Virus record (IMG/VR): IMGVR_UViG_3300035670_000610 | Coordinates: 1-38,287 of that record | DNA: 38,287 nucleotides | Strand: one strand, 5' to 3' | From: a virus | Shown: piece by piece, positions 3,704 through 28,224 of the stretch | Layout of the letters: each line of letters starts with the position of its first letter | Position numbering within the stretch: position 1 is the stretch's first letter | The notes under the pieces: model-generated | What the model was told of the DNA's origin: nothing | Seen by the model: the letters and a program-made list of their open reading frames with translations, nothing else | The model's database searches: none | Translations under genes and position numbers: made by a program

Positions 3704-3709
3704 GGTTTA

Positions 3710-3752
3710 GTTCGCTGTTCGCCGTTCGCAGTTCGCGATTCGCTGTTCGCGG
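3710..3752. repeat. GTTCGCN short tandem repeat array
   Basis: About six heptamers of the form GTTCGC plus one variable base fill the gap between the tape measure start and the stop of the next gene. The last unit runs into the TTAA that supplies the neighbour's TAA stop. No ribosome-binding site is evident. Confidence 0.85.
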
Positions 3753-4184
3753 TTAAGCCGTGGCCGCGCCGGATTGCAGGAGCTGGCGGGCGTTGAAGCT
3801 GATTTGGGTGGCGCTTTTGACGATGGCCAAAACCGCGCCGTAATCGCCCGTCGCCAGATCGGCCACGGGCATCATCTTGCCGGCGGTGCGGCTCAGCACG
3901 AGCACGGTGTTGATGGCCAGGCCGTGGGAGCCGAGCGTCAGCGCTTCGTCCAGGTCGATGTATTCGACCGGCTGTCCGCCGGCGGCCACGGCATTGCAGG
4001 CCATGCCGGCAGGCACGCGGGCCGCCGCCGTGGCGCTGTCGCCATCGGCCAGGTTGGCGACGCCGGCAGAGACGTAAACGATGTCGCCCTGGGCCAGCGC
4101 CGCGCCACTGATCGCCCGCTGACGGGTGGCGAGCGCGGCAGCGCTGAAGGCGAGCGAGGCGGCGGTGATGGAGAGGTCGGCCAT
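3753..4184 (-). CDS. Small virion protein, decoration-like (143 aa)
   Basis: Ala/Val/Gly-rich, predicted all-beta, with no membrane span and no cysteine cluster. It lies between gp36 and the tape measure, where neck or tail-terminator proteins usually sit. The phrase GAALAQGDIVYV recalls head-decoration (DUF2190-like) proteins and resembles in style the protein at 6585-7406. Function is inferred from position and composition. Confidence 0.7.
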   Translation of the reverse strand: MADLSITAASLAFSAAALATRQRAISGAALAQGDIVYVSAGVANLADGDSATAAARVPAGMACNAVAAGGQPVEYIDLDEALTLGSHGLAINTVLVLSRTAGKMMPVADLATGDYGAVLAIVKSATQISFNARQLLQSGAATA

Positions 4185-4186
4185 AA

Positions 4187-4262
4187 GTCAGTGCGTCAGT
4201 GCGTCAGTGCGTCAGTGCGTCAATGAGTCAGTGAGTCAGTGAGTCAGTGAGTCAGTGAGTCA
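4187..4262. repeat. GTCAGTGN short tandem repeat array
   Basis: About nine octamers GTCAGTGC, then GTCAGTGA. The last three bases provide the TGA stop (reverse strand) of the gp36-like gene. The same octamer recurs at 14255-14309, 16980-17005, 23928-23960, 26899-26960 and 31620-31657. Confidence 0.9.
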
Positions 4263-4694
4263 GCAGAGCGGGCGGCCGGGAGCGCCGAGGGCGCTATCGA
4301 AGGTGATGATGCTCGCGGGCGGATCGATCACGGCGGCGTCGGTATTGGGCTCGACGCTGAGTTTGAGGTCACCGGCGGAGATCATGGCGAGCGTCTTGCG
4401 GAAGGCATCGGCGCGGCCCTTCCAGGGGTTCTCATTGTCCGGCGTGCTACGGCGGCGGTAGCACAGCTCGCAGGCGAAGGCCGTGGCGGCGCGCTTGATG
4501 ATCTTGGGCATCGGGTCAAACGTGAGCGGCACGGCGAAGCGGCCTTCAAGGAGCGCATCGACCTCCTCCTGCACGATGGCCTTCACGGCGTCCCAGGCAT
4601 CCACCACGCCATCGTTGTCATCGTCGAGCGCCTGGATGAGGAACTGCGGCGGGATCTGGCCGCTGAGATCGGCGAGGGCGAGGTAGTCAGACAT
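4260..4694 (-). CDS. Mu gp36-like head-tail connector (DUF1320)
   Basis: 144 aa. The protein opens MSDYLALADLSGQIP and continues with a helical Asp-rich segment and a C-terminal helix pair including RADAFRKTLAMISAGD. This is the DUF1320/gp36 pattern found just after the major capsid gene in Mu-like phages, where it forms part of the head-tail connection. Order in this operon (capsid, disordered protein, tiny membrane peptide, gp36) is consistent. The stop is provided by the adjacent repeat. Confidence 0.8.
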   Translation of the reverse strand: MSDYLALADLSGQIPPQFLIQALDDDNDGVVDAWDAVKAIVQEEVDALLEGRFAVPLTFDPMPKIIKRAATAFACELCYRRRSTPDNENPWKGRADAFRKTLAMISAGDLKLSVEPNTDAAVIDPPASIITFDSALGAPGRPLC

Positions 4695-4761
4695 GCCCGG
4701 AGCGTAGAGCGGCGGGCGGAGGGCGGAGAGTCAGCGGGCGCGTGTTGCGGGGTGTCTGTGG

Positions 4762-4872
4762 CTGTGGCTGAGGTCGTTGACCTCAGGGGGCGGCCTCAGC
4801 GAGGCCAGCTACAGCTTAGCTGTGGCTGAGGTCGTTGACCTCAGGGGATGGCCTCAGCGAGGCCAGCTACAG
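4762..4872 (-). repeat. Two tandem double-hairpin palindromic elements
   Basis: Two ~53-bp copies, at 4762-4814 and 4820-4872. Each has a GGCCTC/GAGGCC stem-loop and a TGAGGTC/GACCTCA stem-loop enclosed by outer complementary ends CTGTAGCTG and CAGC(C/T)ACAG. Read on the minus strand, the transcribed one, they have the same orientation as the right-arm copies read on the plus strand. They lie between the tiny membrane peptide and the gp36-like gene. They could act as transcript stabilisers or weak terminators; no T-tract follows. Confidence 0.85.
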
Positions 4873-9156: not shown

Positions 9157-9855
9157 TCAATGAGCTTCCTTGTTAGCCGCCTTGAGTCTCGCAACTATCG
9201 GGCGCGTCAGAAACTCAGAATAGGCCGGCGGAATTGCCTGCGAGAGTTCGTTGCCAGTCATCCAGTCTATCCCCATCGCCTCCGGCCCGACGTATCGCCC
9301 AATGTCACCGACCACAGTCACGAAGCCGCCAGCGTCCCAGTGCCCGCGGCGGTTCTTCTTGCGGCGATTCACTGCTACCGGATGTTTCGGGTGTGGCAGC
9401 GGATGAGGTTTCAGCGGGACATTGCTCTCGAAGATTCGATGCCGGTAGGCGCGCAGCCCGAACATCACGGCGCACAGCATCACGTCCACGCGAAGCGGGG
9501 CGCCCACGACATTTTCGAGGATGTATGGCCCGCCCCACGCTTCGAGTTTTGCCCGTGTCCGCTCGATGAAGCATTCGTAGTGCTTGCCCACACGAGCGCG
9601 CAGCGCGGTGTGTTCCTGACACGGCGGGCTTGCCCACACGAAATCGAAGCCAGACAGGTCGGCTTCCAGGGCGTCTCCGAGATGGAATACGAAAGGGAAG
9701 TTCTTTTGCGGTTTGATGTCCCAGCCTTCCACGTCGAAGCCAGCGCGGTGGAGTCCGACCGCTGCCCCGCCAGCCCCGCAAAAGAGGTCTGCGCAACGAA
9801 GGCGGCTAACCATACGCTGCACCGAATGCCGGGATTGCGTCTCAGGCGAGTTCAT
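9157..9855 (-). CDS. C5-cytosine DNA methyltransferase
   Basis: 232 aa. Motif I is DLFCGAGGAAVGLHRAGF (residues ~24-40), motif IV is SPPCQ with catalytic C79, motif VI is LENV (~113-116), a RHR variant of motif VIII follows, and the end carries motif IX/X-like ELSQAIPPAYSEF. It is shorter than typical Dcm-type enzymes (usually over 300 aa), with a small target-recognition region. No cognate nuclease is visible, so it is probably an orphan anti-restriction methylase protecting phage DNA. It lies inside a cargo cassette in the head operon. Confidence 0.93.
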   Translation of the reverse strand: MNSPETQSRHSVQRMVSRLRCADLFCGAGGAAVGLHRAGFDVEGWDIKPQKNFPFVFHLGDALEADLSGFDFVWASPPCQEHTALRARVGKHYECFIERTRAKLEAWGGPYILENVVGAPLRVDVMLCAVMFGLRAYRHRIFESNVPLKPHPLPHPKHPVAVNRRKKNRRGHWDAGGFVTVVGDIGRYVGPEAMGIDWMTGNELSQAIPPAYSEFLTRPIVARLKAANKEAH

Positions 9856-14203: not shown

Positions 14204-14309
14204 GGGGAGACTTGGAGACTTGGAGGCGAGGAGACGGGGAGACTTGGAGAGCGGAGAGTCAGTGCGTCAGTGCGTCAGTGAGTCAGTGAGTCAGTGAGTC
14301 AGTGAGTCA
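14204..14309. repeat. Two adjoining tandem arrays (GGAGACTT then GTCAGTGA)
   Basis: A GGAGACTT array (14205-14250) passes into a GTCAGTGC/GTCAGTGA array (14255-14309). The last unit supplies the TGA stop of the next leftward gene. There is no other content in this gap. Confidence 0.85.
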
Positions 14310-15029
14310 GAAGGGTTCGTTCTCGGGGTCTTTGACGCGTTGGCCGGGGCGGGGGCGGAGGATGTATTCGCGAGAGCGGGAGACGGGCGCGGGAGCGGCG
14401 CCGGCGGCGGGCGGAGTCACTGAGGCAGGGAGACTTTGAGACTTGGAGACGGGGAGACTGGCGGGCTTGGCATCTCCTTGCCTGATGGTCTCCCGGTCTC
14501 CTTGTCTTTGCTTTTTGTTCCGGTTGTCGGGATCGCCGAGACCGAGCTTGGCGCGGCAGCGGTTGACGATGGTGTCATGGAGCTGCTTGAGCTGCCAGGT
14601 GCGCAGGCTGCGGATGTCGGCCCCCTTGAAGCGCTGCTGCAAAATAACAAAGAGGTAACCGTCTTTGAAGCCGGCCTTGGCCATCCAGTGGCGCAGATCG
14701 CGCACGTATTCACAACCTGGCGCGCGGTCGCAGTCGGCATTCTCAATCACCTTCACCGTGCGCTTGGTGGCGCGGCCTTTCCAAAACGGGCCCGCCAGCG
14801 CCTCGAAGTGCTGCATCACGAGGTTGTACTCGTCATTCACCATGTCCTTGAAGCTGCACACGCGCTGCGTGGCGAGCGCGACCTGCTGATGACGCCAGAA
14901 TTCATTCTGCGCGGACTTCGACGCGTTGGCCATGTCCGGCGGGATCTCAAATGCCCCGACCATGCGCTGGTGCTTCACCGCTGCGGTGGCGGCGATGCCG
15001 AGCTGGATGAGTTGGTCTTTGGACATCAT
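14307..15029 (-). CDS. Early/middle protein, possibly GemA-like (240 aa)
   Basis: Helical protein with SLRTWQLKQLHDTIVNRC in the middle, weakly reminiscent of the GemA/gp16 (DUF1018) pattern of Mu-like phages. GEMA modulates host gene expression and replication in Mu. The C-terminal ~65 residues (QRQGDRETIRQGD, SLPVSKSQSLPASV) are translated GAGAC-type tandem repeats and Pro/Ala-rich sequence. The GemA assignment is tentative. Confidence 0.6.
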   Translation of the reverse strand: MMSKDQLIQLGIAATAAVKHQRMVGAFEIPPDMANASKSAQNEFWRHQQVALATQRVCSFKDMVNDEYNLVMQHFEALAGPFWKGRATKRTVKVIENADCDRAPGCEYVRDLRHWMAKAGFKDGYLFVILQQRFKGADIRSLRTWQLKQLHDTIVNRCRAKLGLGDPDNRNKKQRQGDRETIRQGDAKPASLPVSKSQSLPASVTPPAAGAAPAPVSRSREYILRPRPGQRVKDPENEPF

Positions 15030-15854: not shown

Positions 15855-16862
15855 TCAGCGGCGCTTTTGCTCGGTGGCGATGGCGGTGAAGAAGGCTTCT
15901 TTCGTGCTGGCCTCGCCTTTGTTGACCTCCCGCAGGAAGCGTGCGGTGGCCTTGGCGACGAATTTGAGGCAGCCGTTGCCACGGGCGGTTTCGCGCAGGC
16001 GGGCGGCGACGGCGTCGATCTCGGCAGCGGTGAGCACCACGCCCCGGGCGAGCAGGAAGGCGCGGATGTCGTCGTGTCCAAGCACAAGCTGGATGCGCTC
16101 CGCGAGGCGGTTGCCAATGAGCTGCTTCACCTCCATGTAGGTGTCCCGCGAGCTCGTGAGCCGGTCCCAGAGCTGCGGAATCGCGGTGGCGACGATGATC
16201 GTCGGCGTCAGGTTGATGAGGGCCTTCAGCGTGTTGAGGCCTTGAGGGCAAAGGTGGTGAGCCTCTTCAACAACCAGGCAGCGGCGCTGGCCTTTGAGCT
16301 TCGTGATGACCTCCTTCATCAGCGCGTCACGGCGCGCAGGCAGATCCTTGATGCCCAGCTCCTCCGCGATGGCCCGCAGCAGCGGCACGGCGGTATTGCG
16401 GTTGTCCTTCTTCCACACATCGAGCGCCTCGACCACGACCATGAGGCCGCCGTAGGGCTTGCCGAGCATCACCTGGATGGCACTGGTCTTGCCCACACCG
16501 GACTCGCCCTGGATCAGAATGAAGCGGTCATTGCCCTTCGTGAGGCGCGTTTCGAGATACGAGCGGCACAGTTCGACCGGGCCGGTCAAGGTGGGGATGA
16601 GGCTGTCATCAGCGGCGCTGTCGGCATCCTTGATCTGGCGCCAGACGTGCGCGTAGCTGTCGCTCCACTTGTCGAGGTCGAGCTGCGCATAGTCCGCACC
16701 AATGATCTTGTTGTAGGTGCGGTCTGTGCCGAGCTCCGGGTATTGACGCAGGAGCGCGGCCTTCGTCAGGCCGAAATCGGCGCGGTAGGTTTCGATGTTT
16801 GACGCGGCCTCGCTCAACTGGCGGGCGGTGTCTGTGTCAGGGGCGGGAGGGGTGGCATTCAT
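15855..16862 (-). CDS. MuB-like transposition AAA ATPase
   Basis: 335 aa. Walker A is GESGVGKT at ~119-126 and Walker B is CLVVEEAHH at ~195-203, followed by an AAA core and a C-terminal helical region. The N-terminal ~90 residues look like the small DNA-binding domain of MuB (312 aa in Mu). MuB binds target DNA, stimulates MuA and mediates target immunity. Unlike Mu, eight small genes separate it from the transposase gene, though both lie in the same leftward operon. Confidence 0.9.
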   Translation of the reverse strand: MNATPPAPDTDTARQLSEAASNIETYRADFGLTKAALLRQYPELGTDRTYNKIIGADYAQLDLDKWSDSYAHVWRQIKDADSAADDSLIPTLTGPVELCRSYLETRLTKGNDRFILIQGESGVGKTSAIQVMLGKPYGGLMVVVEALDVWKKDNRNTAVPLLRAIAEELGIKDLPARRDALMKEVITKLKGQRRCLVVEEAHHLCPQGLNTLKALINLTPTIIVATAIPQLWDRLTSSRDTYMEVKQLIGNRLAERIQLVLGHDDIRAFLLARGVVLTAAEIDAVAARLRETARGNGCLKFVAKATARFLREVNKGEASTKEAFFTAIATEQKRR

Positions 16863-19895: not shown

Positions 19896-21866
19896 TCACT
19901 CCAGGGAGGCTTCGAGGGCTTCGAGGGCTTCGAGGGCGGCGAGGGCGGCGGAGCGTGAATGGTCTTGAGCGTGGCGGGTGGGGCCGTGCGCAGTCGCATA
20001 AGCAGCGGTCTGGCCGGGGCGTCCCCGGTCGGCCTCGCCGATGCCCGCGCGGGGATCAGCCGCGCTGCGGAGGTCGCCGCCACGCTCAAGGGATTCGTCG
20101 GCAAACACGGAGGTTTGCCCTCCGACCGGCGGGGCGCCGCTGTCGAGGTTCAGCGGCGCGAGCGCGTCGCCCTCCGAAGCCGCAAGGCGAAGGAGGGGAT
20201 CGGCGCTGCCTTTGCGGATCGTGCGCACCTGGCCGCGTGACACGACGCTGGACACGCGCACGTGCTTCTTCGCCGCCTTGATGATGCGCGTCTCCGCCCG
20301 CACGGCGCTCTGGGTCTTGCGGCGGCCGTCGAAGTCGGCGGTCTCCGGCGCATCGCTCCACTGTGGAGCATGCGCGGCGTGCGGCAGGATGCCCAGCGGC
20401 AGGCCGATGGGGAAGCGGCGCGGATTCTGCGGATGGTCCGGATGCAGACCATTGAAGACATGGCAGCCGAGATCCGGGCGGGCCGGGTGGAAGGCGGCGA
20501 GCACACGCCAGCCGTGCGGCAGCCAGGCGTTCCAGTCCCACTGCGGCGCGAAGCCCTCGGCGGTGAAGAGGAAGGGCAGCTCGTAACCTTTGGCGCGCAG
20601 GCTCACGTGCGCATTGCGCACGGTGACAGCGGCCTTCACCGGCAGGAAGCGCCAGCGATGTTCAGCAGGAAGATCGCGACGCACTGCCGATGAGAACAAT
20701 TCAGCAGGCACGACCTTCTTCGCCCCGAACAAATGCGGGCGGCGCTTGGCTTCGTGGTTGAAGCGGTCCAGCACATCCGCCGAGATGTCCGCACGGGCGG
20801 CGGCGGTCGGGAATTTGGCGATGGCGCTGACGTTGCCATTCAGCGCGAGACGATGCAGGCGCGCATTGGCTTCGTGTTCGCCACGCTCGCGGCCGATGTC
20901 GAGCGTCTCATGGGCCGCGAGGTTCTGGCGATGATTGAAGCTGCCTTCGATGGTGCCCTTTTGCCGCGATTTGAAGGCCTGCATCACGCCGATGGGGCCG
21001 CCAGCGGAGATGTCGATGCCACCCCAGCGCAGCGAGGCGCACTCCGGCGTGTGCCACCAGGCTTTCGGCAGCGGGGAGCCAAACCAGAAGTTGTTGTCCC
21101 AGGGGCCGCGCTCAATGCGGGCGCGCAGCGGCAGGCCATGGGCGTCGATGAGTTCGAGCAGGAAGTCGGCCTGGTCTTCGATGCGGTAGCCGTCGCTGTC
21201 GCGGCTCACGGCGCGCATGCCGAGGTAGAAGGATGAGTACACGTCGATGGCCTTCAGCGTCTGTCGGTTCACGCGCGGCCTGCCGTCCTCGTCGATCTCC
21301 AGCCAGGGCGTGTTCTCGGATTCGTCATCAAACTCCCAGAGAGCGTTGGCGAAGAGCGGCTGGCTGGCGCCGGACTCATCCTTGTAGATGAGACCACGCG
21401 GGCGGGCGGGCTCGACTGCGGCCAAGGCTTTCGGCCCGTGGAAGGCCGCGCGCTCCTCATCGGTGAGGATGCAGGCGCGCATAAACCAGCGCGGCCAGAC
21501 TTCATCCGTGCGCTTCTCAGCGGCTCCATCGAAGACGGCGGCCAGCTTCGCGTGCGTTTCCGCCGTGCAGCAGTCCGAACGCAAAAGCAGATCCGCCGCG
21601 AGACGGCGGCTGCGCTTCGTGAGCATGCCCAGCTTCAGCACCGCGATCTCGTCCGGCGTGAGCGCGTGGTCATCACGCGGTCCCGTGGCGTAGTTTTTGG
21701 CCACGGCGGCCTCGGCATCGCCGGAGTCCTTCAGCTTCGCCAGGCGGCGGCACAGCGTCGGCTCGCTCACGCCGTAGCGCAGGGCGAGACTCTTCTGAGT
21801 CCAGCCCTGGGTGAGGAGCGTGGCGGCTTCGTGCAGTTGCATGGCGGTGAGGTCGGGCATGAGCAT
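19896..21866 (-). CDS. MuA-like DDE transposase
   Basis: About 656 aa (MuA has 663). I choose ATG 21866; the open frame above it is translated repeat. Residues ~20-45 form an HTH (GWTQKSLALRYGVSEPTLCRRL). The catalytic core has WEFDD (D180/181), WDNNF (D257) and GTIEGSFNHRQNL (E307), the expected DDE triad of rve/MuA transposases. The C-terminal ~70 residues are low complexity, ending in repeat-encoded ALEALEALEASLE. It carries out replicative transposition and integration of the phage. Confidence 0.9.
   Translation of the reverse strand: MLMPDLTAMQLHEAATLLTQGWTQKSLALRYGVSEPTLCRRLAKLKDSGDAEAAVAKNYATGPRDDHALTPDEIAVLKLGMLTKRSRRLAADLLLRSDCCTAETHAKLAAVFDGAAEKRTDEVWPRWFMRACILTDEERAAFHGPKALAAVEPARPRGLIYKDESGASQPLFANALWEFDDESENTPWLEIDEDGRPRVNRQTLKAIDVYSSFYLGMRAVSRDSDGYRIEDQADFLLELIDAHGLPLRARIERGPWDNNFWFGSPLPKAWWHTPECASLRWGGIDISAGGPIGVMQAFKSRQKGTIEGSFNHRQNLAAHETLDIGRERGEHEANARLHRLALNGNVSAIAKFPTAAARADISADVLDRFNHEAKRRPHLFGAKKVVPAELFSSAVRRDLPAEHRWRFLPVKAAVTVRNAHVSLRAKGYELPFLFTAEGFAPQWDWNAWLPHGWRVLAAFHPARPDLGCHVFNGLHPDHPQNPRRFPIGLPLGILPHAAHAPQWSDAPETADFDGRRKTQSAVRAETRIIKAAKKHVRVSSVVSRGQVRTIRKGSADPLLRLAASEGDALAPLNLDSGAPPVGGQTSVFADESLERGGDLRSAADPRAGIGEADRGRPGQTAAYATAHGPTRHAQDHSRSAALAALEALEALEASLE
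20098..20123. repeat. Half copy of the 54-bp coding palindrome
   Basis: TCGGCAAACACGGAGG through TTGCCCTCC, matching the right half of the elements at 5434 and 17450. It lies in frame in the transposase C-terminal region (QTSVFADES). Confidence 0.7.
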
Positions 21867-21896
21867 GCGGCGAGTGACGGGCGAGAGCGGGCGCGA

Positions 21897-21910
21897 TGAA
21901 ATGGGTCTAG
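21897..21910 (+). promoter_or_regulatory. Internal copy of the phage end site, upstream of the transposase
   Basis: TGAAATGGGTCTAG is identical over 14 bases to the left terminus (135-148) and lies 30 bp upstream of the chosen transposase start. After the site comes AGCGGGAC, also present just inside the left end (181-187). It could be an operator for transposase autoregulation, an internal enhancer-like site, or a relic of an older phage end. Confidence 0.65.
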
Positions 21911-22152
21911 CGGGACTTCGAGCGAAGAGCGGAGGGCGAAGAGCGGAGGGCTTTCTTTGAGCCACGCGGGCGGCTCACATTGATGCCGGACTTGCCGCCG
22001 GTGAGCTTCTTCTCGGCATCGCGGAGCGCAGCGGCTGCGGCAAAATTTTGGTCGATGATCGCCGCCTCCTTCAAGCAACGCAGCGTGACGATGCGCTCGG
22101 AGACAAGCAGCGGCTTGAGCGCCTTCGTCAGGGAGTTCATGGTGATTTTCAC
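21907..22152 (-). CDS. Small protein between ParB-like and transposase (81 aa)
   Basis: GTG 22152 overlaps the ParB-like stop as GTGA; ATG 22140 is an alternative. The middle (QNFAAAAALRDAEKKL) resembles the UVR motif of UvrB/UvrC-binding helices. The C-terminus (ALRSSPSALRSKSR) is translated AGAGCGGAGGGCGA repeat. Its stop overlaps the internal end site. Function unknown; the UVR likeness is weak. Confidence 0.6.
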   Translation of the reverse strand: MKITMNSLTKALKPLLVSERIVTLRCLKEAAIIDQNFAAAAALRDAEKKLTGGKSGINVSRPRGSKKALRSSPSALRSKSR

Positions 22153-23216
22153 GACTCGCCTCCTTTCTTGCTAAGCTTGGCAAAGAGGGCGGCGCGGACA
22201 TCGTCCGGCCAGGTGAGGGCGGAGTCGGTGAGATCCTTGATGACCTCAATGCGTCCGGCCTGATCGATGCTGCTCCATTCCTTCCACATCGTGGAGCCGA
22301 AGCTCTTGATCTTGGAGCGCAGCGTCATCCACAGCACGGGGCTGTCCTTGTTGACATCGTTGCGCACCTGCCCGGCGGTGGCGAAGTAGGAGCCCATGGC
22401 CTTCAGTGCCGCGCCGAGGCTGTAGGACTTGCGGTCATCGTCCTCGCCATCCGCCTCGATCACGCCGTTGAAGATCTTGTCCTCTTCAATCTCGCGGAAG
22501 TGTTTCGGGAGCGTGTTGTGGCTCTTCGCATCATCCGGCAGGCCGCTGGCGGCCAGGGCCTGGGCACGCCAGACGCTCCACGGCATGTCGAGCGCCATGT
22601 TGGCATCGCGGAAGGCCAGCCAGCTTTCGTTGTCGTCGGGATTGAGGTCGAGCCAGTCGGCAATGAGCTTGTCCGCACGGGTCATGTAATCCCGCTCCAG
22701 CTTCACGGCCTGCTGAAGCAGATCGACGCTGAGATTGGACTTCAGGGCGAGGGATTCGAGGGTGTCTGTTTCTGAAAGCCGATTGAATCGGCTTTCAGAA
22801 CCAGCGCGGACCGCTCGGGCATTCGCCGCGCTGGCCTCCCGGCCCGCTTGCGCGGCTTTCGCGGCCATGTGGCGGAGGGCGTAGGCGCGGGCGGATTTGC
22901 TGTAATGGCGGCGCTGGAGGAGCTTCTCACAGACCAGCTCCGCCGGGTTGCTGAACTCGATCACGTCGCAGGGCAGCTCGACGAGCTTGTCGATGCGCAG
23001 CGCGGCGAGGAGACGGTGGCGGCCGTCCTCGACCTCGTTGAGGACGTTCACTTGCAGCGGGTCGTGAATGAGGCGCTCCGGTTTGACGCCGCGCTTCAGC
23101 TTGGCGGTGAAGTCCGCCACGAGCAGCTCCACGAGGGCGCGGTCTTCGGGCGTTTGGGAGACCGCCGCGTGGACGCTGAGGTCGAATTTGTTGATCCAGG
23201 TGATGGCGCGGGACAT
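22149..23216 (-). CDS. ParB-like protein in the transposition operon
   Basis: 355 aa. GRHRLLAAL near residues 65-73 is the box of the ParB/sulfiredoxin-like N-terminal domain; a helical region with HTH-like SNLSVDLLQQAVKL follows. ParB-like proteins occur beside transposase genes in some Mu-like phages, where their role is unclear (regulation, segregation or nuclease). The coding region contains a perfect 31-bp palindrome (22770-22800). It is upstream of and coupled to the transposase genes. Confidence 0.8.
   Translation of the reverse strand: MSRAITWINKFDLSVHAAVSQTPEDRALVELLVADFTAKLKRGVKPERLIHDPLQVNVLNEVEDGRHRLLAALRIDKLVELPCDVIEFSNPAELVCEKLLQRRHYSKSARAYALRHMAAKAAQAGREASAANARAVRAGSESRFNRLSETDTLESLALKSNLSVDLLQQAVKLERDYMTRADKLIADWLDLNPDDNESWLAFRDANMALDMPWSVWRAQALAASGLPDDAKSHNTLPKHFREIEEDKIFNGVIEADGEDDDRKSYSLGAALKAMGSYFATAGQVRNDVNKDSPVLWMTLRSKIKSFGSTMWKEWSSIDQAGRIEVIKDLTDSALTWPDDVRAALFAKLSKKGGES
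22770..22800. repeat. Perfect 31-bp palindrome in the ParB-like gene
   Basis: 15-bp arms TTCTGAAAGCCGATT and AATCGGCTTTCAGAA around one central G (22785). It is read in frame as ESRFNRLSET, a peptide that looks inserted into an Ala/Arg-rich helix. It could be a parS-like binding site for the encoded protein, or a palindromic insertion. Confidence 0.85.
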
Positions 23217-23219
23217 GGG

Positions 23220-23255
23220 AGACGAGACTTGGAGACTTGGAGACTTGGAGACGGG
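23220..23255. repeat. GGAGACTT tandem repeat
   Basis: Four GGAGACTT units between the ParB-like start and the stop of the upstream gene. Confidence 0.85.
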
Positions 23256-25930: not shown

Positions 25931-26365
25931 ATGCTTTTCAGCTCTCTGTTCGCGGTTCTCGGTTCGTCGTTGTTGTTGCTCGCCACTGCTGGCGAGATGC
26001 CTCCGCCCAGCTCTGCGGAGGCCGTGGGGTGGGTGGTGTTGAGCATCGCGGCCGCCTGTCTGGCACTCAACCAGATCGCAGGTTTCTACTTCACACTGAG
26101 CCCCCGCAAGACACCTCCGGATCATGAGACCTACGCCACGAAGGCGGAGCTGGCGCAGGCCAAAAAGGAGCACCAGGAGAGCGATGCGCGCATTGAAAGG
26201 CGCTTTGAGGAGTGGATGGAGCAGCAGCAGGAGCAGCACAAAGAGAACATCGCGAAGCTGGAGGAGGCGATGGACAAGTTTGGCGAGTGGCAGCAGAGCA
26301 TCGAGCGCGCCCTGGGGCATGTGGAGACGAAGGCGGATGTGGCGCTGGGGAAGAGGCGGTCCTAG
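25931..26365 (+). CDS. DUF2730-like membrane/coiled-coil protein (144 aa)
   Basis: Two membrane segments (MLFSSLFAVLGSSLLLLATA; GWVVLSIAAACLALNQIAGF), then a long charged coiled coil (~65-135). Mu-like phages carry such a protein (Mu gp25, DUF2730) a few genes before the small terminase. The N-terminal hydrophobic segment is itself translated GTTCGC/GTTCTC repeat. Role unknown, possibly related to lysis or DNA packaging. Confidence 0.65.
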   Translation: MLFSSLFAVLGSSLLLLATAGEMPPPSSAEAVGWVVLSIAAACLALNQIAGFYFTLSPRKTPPDHETYATKAELAQAKKEHQESDARIERRFEEWMEQQQEQHKENIAKLEEAMDKFGEWQQSIERALGHVETKADVALGKRRS

Positions 26366-26425
<60 letters not shown>

Positions 26426-26478
26426 CTGTAGCTGGCCTCGTTGAGGCCAGTCCCTGAGGTCAACGACCTCAGCCACAG
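26426..26478 (+). repeat. Double-hairpin palindromic element
   Basis: 53-bp copy, oriented with transcription, abutting the GTTCGC array. Followed by CGCCCTN heptamers (26500-26525) leading to the next start. Confidence 0.85.
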
Positions 26479-26748: not shown

Positions 26749-26901
26749 ATGCAGAAGCGCGATGGATGCACCGGCAAGATGCGGCACGCCAAGAGGCGTT
26801 TCGCGCTGAAGCACATCGCGAGTCTGAAGGAGCCCGGCATGCGGACAGGATCGCGGGCATTCAATCAAGGCTGGACCGCCTCATTGGCCCCGATCCACTG
26901 A
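26749..26901 (+). CDS. Small basic protein, possibly degenerate zinc-binding type (50 aa)
   Basis: ATG 26749. Sequence MQKRDGCTGKMRHAKRRFAL through GMRTGSRAFNQGW. The order KRRFAL, then a helix, then a short aromatic end resembles small phage CxxC-WH proteins, with the second Cys/His pair missing here. The stop codon lies in the first unit of the downstream CTGACTCA array. Low certainty. Confidence 0.4.
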   Translation: MQKRDGCTGKMRHAKRRFALKHIASLKEPGMRTGSRAFNQGWTASLAPIH

Positions 26902-26960
26902 CTCACTGACGCACTGACGCACTGACTCACTGACTCACTGACTCACTGACTCACTGACAC
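26899..26960. repeat. CTGACTCA/CTGACGCA tandem array
   Basis: About seven octamers. The first gives the TGA of the preceding gene and the last lies three bases before the next ATG, leaving no room for a Shine-Dalgarno sequence. Confidence 0.9.
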
Positions 26961-27498: not shown

Positions 27499-27650
27499 CT
27501 AGATCCTAGATCCTAGATCCTAGATCCTAGATCCTGGCATCTAGCATCTAGCATCTAGCATCTAGCATCTAGCATCTAGCATCCAGCATCCAGCATCCCG
27601 CAACGGGCATCTAGCATCTAGCATCCAGCATCCAGCATCTAGCATCCAGC
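27499..27650. repeat. Largest tandem array: GATCCTA then CATCTAG/CATCCAG
   Basis: About five GATCCTA heptamers followed by roughly fifteen CATCTAG or CATCCAG heptamers, interrupted once by CCCGCAACGGG (a small hairpin). The last unit runs directly into the ATG of the tail tube gene. No gene in this 152-bp stretch. Confidence 0.95.
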
Positions 27651-28076
27651 ATGACCTTCGCCACCACCTTCGGACCTCATGACGTGCTGCTGCTGGGCGA
27701 TGCCGTGCCGGTGCTGGGCACGGCGGTGTTAGGCGATGACTTTGGCGTGATCAAACGGGCCACGTTGGTGCGCACCGGTAAGAGGGAGATGATCCTGGAT
27801 GACGCTGAAAGCCTGCGGGTGCTGCTGATCAACAACCCTGGCTTTGAGTGCGAGCTGGAATGCTGCTTTGACGCCAGCGTGGCCGCGCCAGGATTGCTGG
27901 AAAGCATCGAGCTGCCGCTCGTGGGCGTGACCGGCCGGGTGATGGAAGGGGTCACCGTGCTGTGGGAGGAGGGCAGCGAGCGCATGCTGCGCATTCCTGT
28001 GGCGCAGTGGGACAGCATGGAGAGCGCGGAGGCGTATCGGCTCGATGAAACCGGTGCGGTGCAGGTCATCGCGTGA
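27651..28076 (+). CDS. Tail tube protein, paralogue 1 (141 aa)
   Basis: Homologous along its whole length to the first ~135 residues of 30384-31070: FATTFGPHDVLLLGDAVPVLGTAVLGDDFG here, matching FSTTFSENDVLVLGDAQVVIGTAILGDDFG there, and both reach AYRLD. It lacks the FN3 tail. Probable major or minor tail tube subunit. Family assignment is from pairing, size and context. Confidence 0.65.
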   Translation: MTFATTFGPHDVLLLGDAVPVLGTAVLGDDFGVIKRATLVRTGKREMILDDAESLRVLLINNPGFECELECCFDASVAAPGLLESIELPLVGVTGRVMEGVTVLWEEGSERMLRIPVAQWDSMESAEAYRLDETGAVQVIA

Positions 28077-28081
28077 CTGTC

Positions 28082-28224
28082 CTGAGGTCACCGACCTCAG
28101 CTACAGGCGTGGCTGTAGCTGGCCTCGTTGAGGCCAATCCCTGAGGTCATCGACCTCAGCTACAGGCGTGACTGTAGCTGGCCTCGTTGAGGCCAGCCCC
28201 TGAGGTCACCGACCTCAGCTACAG
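28082..28224 (+). repeat. Cluster of two and a half double-hairpin elements
   Basis: A half unit (28082-28106) and two full units (28113-28165, 28172-28224), separated by GCGTGRCTGT-like spacers. All are oriented with transcription. The remaining ~60 bp to the next gene contain CGCCCTN heptamers only. Confidence 0.9.

Follow-up and report, generated by a model that had tools for sequence, protein, structure and literature searches.

The window, the 38,287-nucleotide IMG/VR virus record analyzed here as a whole, carries on its minus strand a gene for a ParB-like protein of 355 amino acids (P0001, 22149–23216) with an N-terminal motif, a palindrome-bearing linker, and an HTH-like segment. The ParB-type GxHR motif, DGRHRLLAAL, occupies residues 64–73 (22998–23027, minus strand), and the HTH-like segment, LESLALKSNLSVDLLQQAVKLE, lies at about residues 153–174 (22695–22760, minus strand). 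Directly downstream is the gene for a MuA-like transposase (19896–21965, minus strand; phrog_310, E 3.5e-7). The same strand also encodes a MuB-like AAA ATPase/DNA transposition protein (15855–16862; phrog_296, E 7.9e-19; AAA_22) and a phage DNA methyltransferase (9157–9855; phrog_363, E 3e-31), and other genes of the window specify a DUF935-type portal, a major head protein, a head protease, a tape measure, and a tail fibre. The presence of MuA, MuB, and Mu-type portal and head genes identifies a transposable, Mu-like phage, which we call W.

The assignment of P0001 to ParB combines its motifs, the gene context, and a PHROG ParB match. No Pfam or NCBIfam ParB model matched P0001 or its family (the W family), and the PHROG match, seen for one family member, is weak (E 0.078), so that membership in the ParB family is likely, not proven. 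The profile match of the W family to other phage ParBs was insignificant, and two AlphaFold2 runs gave low confidence (pLDDT 40 and 43). No ParA was found among the window proteins scanned, which represent part of the ORFs and in which the AAA protein is the MuB-like one; classical partition is therefore unlikely.

A Perfect Palindrome in the ParB-like Gene

The linker codons contain the palindrome TTCTGAAAGCCGATT-G-AATCGGCTTTCAGAA at 22770–22800 (no strand assigned), in which two 15-bp arms flank one central base. The original prediction had described these arms as free of mismatches, read in frame as ESRFNRLSET, and too symmetrical for chance, and all three statements hold. The arms are exact, and the palindrome lies inside the ORF at 22149–23216 (minus strand), where the reading frame gives SESRFNRLSET. 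Among perfect palindromes in the window it ranks first in length, with the runner-up at arms of 10, and it occurs there once; with one mismatch allowed it grows to 19-1-19 (22766–22804). Sixty replicas of the window under a second-order Markov model (loops of 0–12) had perfect arms of 13 at most, and none of 200 synonymous-codon shuffles of the ParB-like gene attained 15, the best reaching 11. The palindrome is thus real and beyond chance. Its axis is 31 nt before the reference codon of the HTH-like segment, and its core, GCCGATTNAATCGGC (22778–22792, no strand assigned), is the proposed HTH contact region. Two candidate roles were rejected. An intrinsic terminator does not fit a palindrome in midgene with no T run on either strand, and a central gyrase site like the Mu SGS would suit the position, 40–45% along the genome, but has no other support.

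The window holds other repeats. Short tandem repeats with units of 7 or 8 bases (among them GTTCGCG, AGTCAGTG, GGAGACTT, and CTAGATC) make up 73 rows in all and are mostly intergenic, for example at 3709–3754, 4186–4263, 14256–14310, 23224–23252, 26364–26426, 26896–26958, 27499–27652, and 32830–32907. Tandem arrays of 58–59 bp units occupy 4761–4872 and 28081–28224, and each unit holds an inverted repeat of its own (CTGAGGTC..GACCTCAG). These arrays appear to be related to each other, perhaps in opposite orientation.

Conservation of the Site in Two Related Phages

Two IMG/VR phages are colinear with W: G1 (L002, IMGVR_UViG_3300032291_003437) and G2 (L015, IMGVR_UViG_3300035703_000213), whose MuA-like transposases are 57–77% identical to that of W. 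We found no further W-family relatives in IMG/VR, none in 395 genomes from the phylum to which G407 belongs (probably Bacteroidota), and none among GenBank phages or plasmids. An IMG/VR scan with the 15-bp core alone returned mostly chance matches in unrelated contexts. The three contigs resemble one another in their Mu-type phage ends, with AGACCCATTTCA at one of them, and have unrelated flanks (L139–L142). G1 sits in a prfC-like gene (E 1.3e-10), and G2 in a RhuM-like gene, recognized by eye, with a possible 5-bp duplication, CACAC; the flanks of G2 had no NCBIfam match.

The core GCCGATTNAATCGGC is present at the homologous gene position in W, G1, and G2, and each phage has one copy of the palindrome. 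Read along the coding strand, the core begins in codon phase 1 in W and in phase 2 in G1 and G2, and the peptides over it differ: SESRFNRLSE in W, RKPIESAFD in G1, and MPIESARQ in G2. Outside the core, the arms TTCTGAAA/TTTCAGAA of W are a fully matched pair, and those of G1, TTATCGAAA/TTTCGATAA, are unlike them, in part through a shift of one base that is mirrored on the two sides, yet also fully matched. The arms of G2, TGCCAT/TAGGCA, match save at two inner positions, and RNA folding gives the same pairing; the G2 arms have only 7 perfect pairs, or 13 with two mismatches. Because the frame of the core differs and the outer arms differ yet stay matched, it is the DNA and not the peptide that is conserved. 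The linkers of W and G2 are equal in length, though G2 lacks the long arms. Relative to the HTH codons, the palindrome stands at −31 in W, −30 in G2, and −42 in G1.

Palindromes in Other Phage and Prophage parB-like Genes

We surveyed the parB genes of known parB-MuA-MuB phages, of viral-contig relatives, and of 398 genomes from the phylum that includes the Methylococcaceae MAG G003. The 60 genes were reduced to 46 non-redundant ones at 85% similarity, and the best palindrome of each was placed relative to the HTH codons, which were positioned by one profile alignment (by eye for the motif of W, G1, and G2). These genes are related and not independent, which inflates simple p-values, and we compare counts with a codon-shuffle null. 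In 34 of the 46 genes the best palindrome precedes the HTH codons by 12–80 nt (null mean 4.65, maximum 8); in the other 12 it falls elsewhere. A score of at least 9 is reached in 25 genes, against 1.75 (maximum 4) after synonymous shuffling, and every one of the 34 sites in the interval has an odd axis, as opposed to 57% in the null. The favored positions are −22 and −53. Examples of linker palindromes are 18-3-18 (L184), 15-1-15 (L162), 14-1-14 (L170), 13-1-13 (L160, L163, and L175), and 11-1-11 (RcapMu).

We then ran the unchanged test on new genes drawn from the class that includes G389 (a genome of the phylum-wide search), a set with similarity to the first one of ≤0.68. Six of its 10 distinct genes have the palindrome in the 12–80 nt interval, all with an odd axis; L226 and L234 are weak. 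In eight chromosomal parB controls, linker and palindrome were both absent. The motif AAACGA(N7)TCGTTT, sought in ten genomes of ∼4 Mb, is missing from four, occurs once in five and twice in one, and in every instance lies at the parB gene; sites confined to parB genes in the genomes tested are not dispersed repeats. The W palindrome is most likely an instance of something more general, seen in dozens of ParB genes from phages and prophages: a site just before the HTH codons.

Four genes (L186, L188, L194, and L195) show the same palindrome pattern and are followed, as judged by eye, by a gene for a RecA/Sak4-like ATPase and not by MuA, which extends the pattern beyond transposable phages. The ParB-like frame of L194 has two identical 14-1-14 palindromes, at nt 517 and 799, one before the HTH and the other 282 nt downstream.

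Site Sequence and the Proposed HTH Reader

Among 34 aligned sites, half-site distance tracks HTH distance (Mantel r 0.566), and a correlation persists when N-domain distance is removed (partial r 0.307, p ≤ 0.0005). Helices reading SRRSIE, SKRSIE, ERSIQ, or ERNIQ pair with AACG half-sites, SQTAIK/SQSAIK with GAGCC, and SRTRIA/SRSVIA with GAATCC. GG in the half-site accompanies an Arg placed immediately after the I/V in the recognition helix (4/4 vs 2/27, p = 0.0005). Arm complementarity is 0.71–1.00 at distances of 2–13 from the axis and is close to background at 16 and beyond, a curve that is descriptive only because the axes were chosen as palindromic. A pairwise comparison is provided by RcapMu and RcWaterboi: their parB DNA identity is mostly 0.85–1.0 per 45-nt window and falls to 0.29–0.6 at about nt 361–500, the linker and HTH codons, which therefore appear to have been replaced together.

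Discussion

We propose that the palindrome is probably a parS-like self-site, bound by the ParB-like protein of the gene in which it lies. This reading is supported by the fixed place before the HTH codons, the odd axis, the single copy, and a half-site sequence that varies with the recognition helix; no reader would be more economical than the HTH of the protein itself. The original prediction had offered a parS-like site for the gene's own protein as one of two readings; the comparative evidence just named favors the site, whereas the partition role that the name classically implies is made unlikely by the lack of a ParA among the proteins scanned. In the mechanism we infer from sequence comparison, a P0001 dimer would put one HTH on each half of the core, GCCGATT/AATCGGC, and the site would be written in codons for the loose linker that joins the N-terminal ParB domain to the HTH. 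Since this linker would be the only part of the gene free to spell a DNA sequence, site and reader would be inherited, and exchanged, together. The bound protein might then load onto phage DNA in cis and spread, by analogy with ParB, Noc, and KorB, and so mark the phage DNA; it might also, or instead, check transcription of the parB-MuA-MuB operon, in whose early gene the site lies.

Parts of this arrangement have precedents, and in-gene parS is already known. In B. subtilis, parS is found inside spo0J. KorB of IncP plasmids, a ParB-family protein with a regulatory role, recognizes odd-axis palindromic operators, but these are scattered at promoters and do not lie inside korB as the W site lies in its own gene. 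In the Thermus thermophilus megaplasmid, ParBm binds a palindrome within parBm, as demonstrated by EMSA with competitors (PMC4409726). That parSm resembles the W palindrome in being a ParB palindromic site inside its own gene, and differs in having 14 bp, an even axis, a position within the gene's C-terminal part, and a full parAB operon with ParA. The lactococcal plasmid pLP712 has a one-gene parB/parS tag with parS inside parB (PMC6156202); unlike the W gene, it serves plasmid partition. Phages with the parB-MuA-MuB gene order have also been described (PMC5488378). The alphaproteobacterial transposable phages RcapMu, RR1-B, Aussie, and POA1180 share with W an early parB-like gene, ahead of MuA where seen, and an odd-axis palindrome at the same linker position, and are unlike W in that their proteins are clear ParB family members and their half-site sequences are different. 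A description of the fixed placement and of site–reader coupling across phage ParBs was not found in the open-access papers searched.

Several other explanations were weighed. The palindrome might act as RNA, through a hairpin of the parB mRNA that governs the early operon at the level of translation, pausing, or stability. The predicted folding is strong (z −8.6 in W, −5.5 in G1, and −4.3 in G2), and matched changes in the arms suit an RNA stem equally well, but every DNA palindrome folds like that, and neither an odd axis in 34/34 sites nor half-sites that track the recognition helix would be expected of an RNA stem; we consider this reading unlikely. The palindrome could also be a cis element of self-recognition for exclusion or self-immunity, and not a loading site or operator, in the manner of aba for BstA. 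Like the W palindrome, aba is a cognate DNA element that overlaps the gene of its own protein in prophages, and it is allele-specific as the palindromes appear to be (PMC8585504). BstA, however, is a KilA-N protein with a function in defense, of which there is no sign here, and aba needs direct repeats. This idea, which is compatible with binding by the gene's own protein and differs in purpose, seems to us quite improbable.

A third possibility is that the symmetry is a functionless by-product of mutation: a short palindrome would have arisen by chance, and template switching would have lengthened and perfected its arms. Hairpin-templated correction would yield what W and G1 display, outer arms that differ with a mirrored one-base shift, and template switching may well account for the continued match of the outer arms. 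As a full account it is very improbable, since it leaves unexplained why sites in many families have a fixed position ahead of the HTH and why they are linked to HTH sequence. The least credible, to the point of near dismissal, is the original prediction's other suggestion, an insertion element, here a mobile palindromic repeat of the RPE/REP type inserted in frame. A palindrome read in frame within a tolerant linker would suit such an element, but the linkers of W and G2 are equal in length, W, G1, and G2 have a single copy each, copies in the host genomes tested are at parB only, and the matches of the genome-wide scan resemble terminators in unrelated taxa. Of the searches that the original prediction had recommended, the one of relatives found the core in G1 and G2, and in the host genomes tested, for the motif AAACGA(N7)TCGTTT, copies were at parB genes only.

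We return to the parS-like self-site and what it may mean beyond W. To our knowledge, few divergent orphan ParB-like proteins have a known DNA site. We give about even odds to a general form of the proposal: orphan phage ParB-like proteins would constitute a broad self-addressed class, in which the gene spells its own site beside the codons of the reader and recombination swaps both as one cassette, so that specificity shifts without losing the match. A 2025 survey described divergent ParB-like proteins, often from plasmids or prophages, as almost always orphan and without a ParA-binding motif (PMC12704722). If the proposal is true, dozens of orphan ParB-like proteins would have a binding site that could be read off their own genes, and their targets would become directly testable. 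The pairs of site and helix would form a natural data set for decoding DNA choice by the ParB HTH, and they would show a protein and its address staying linked through recombination.
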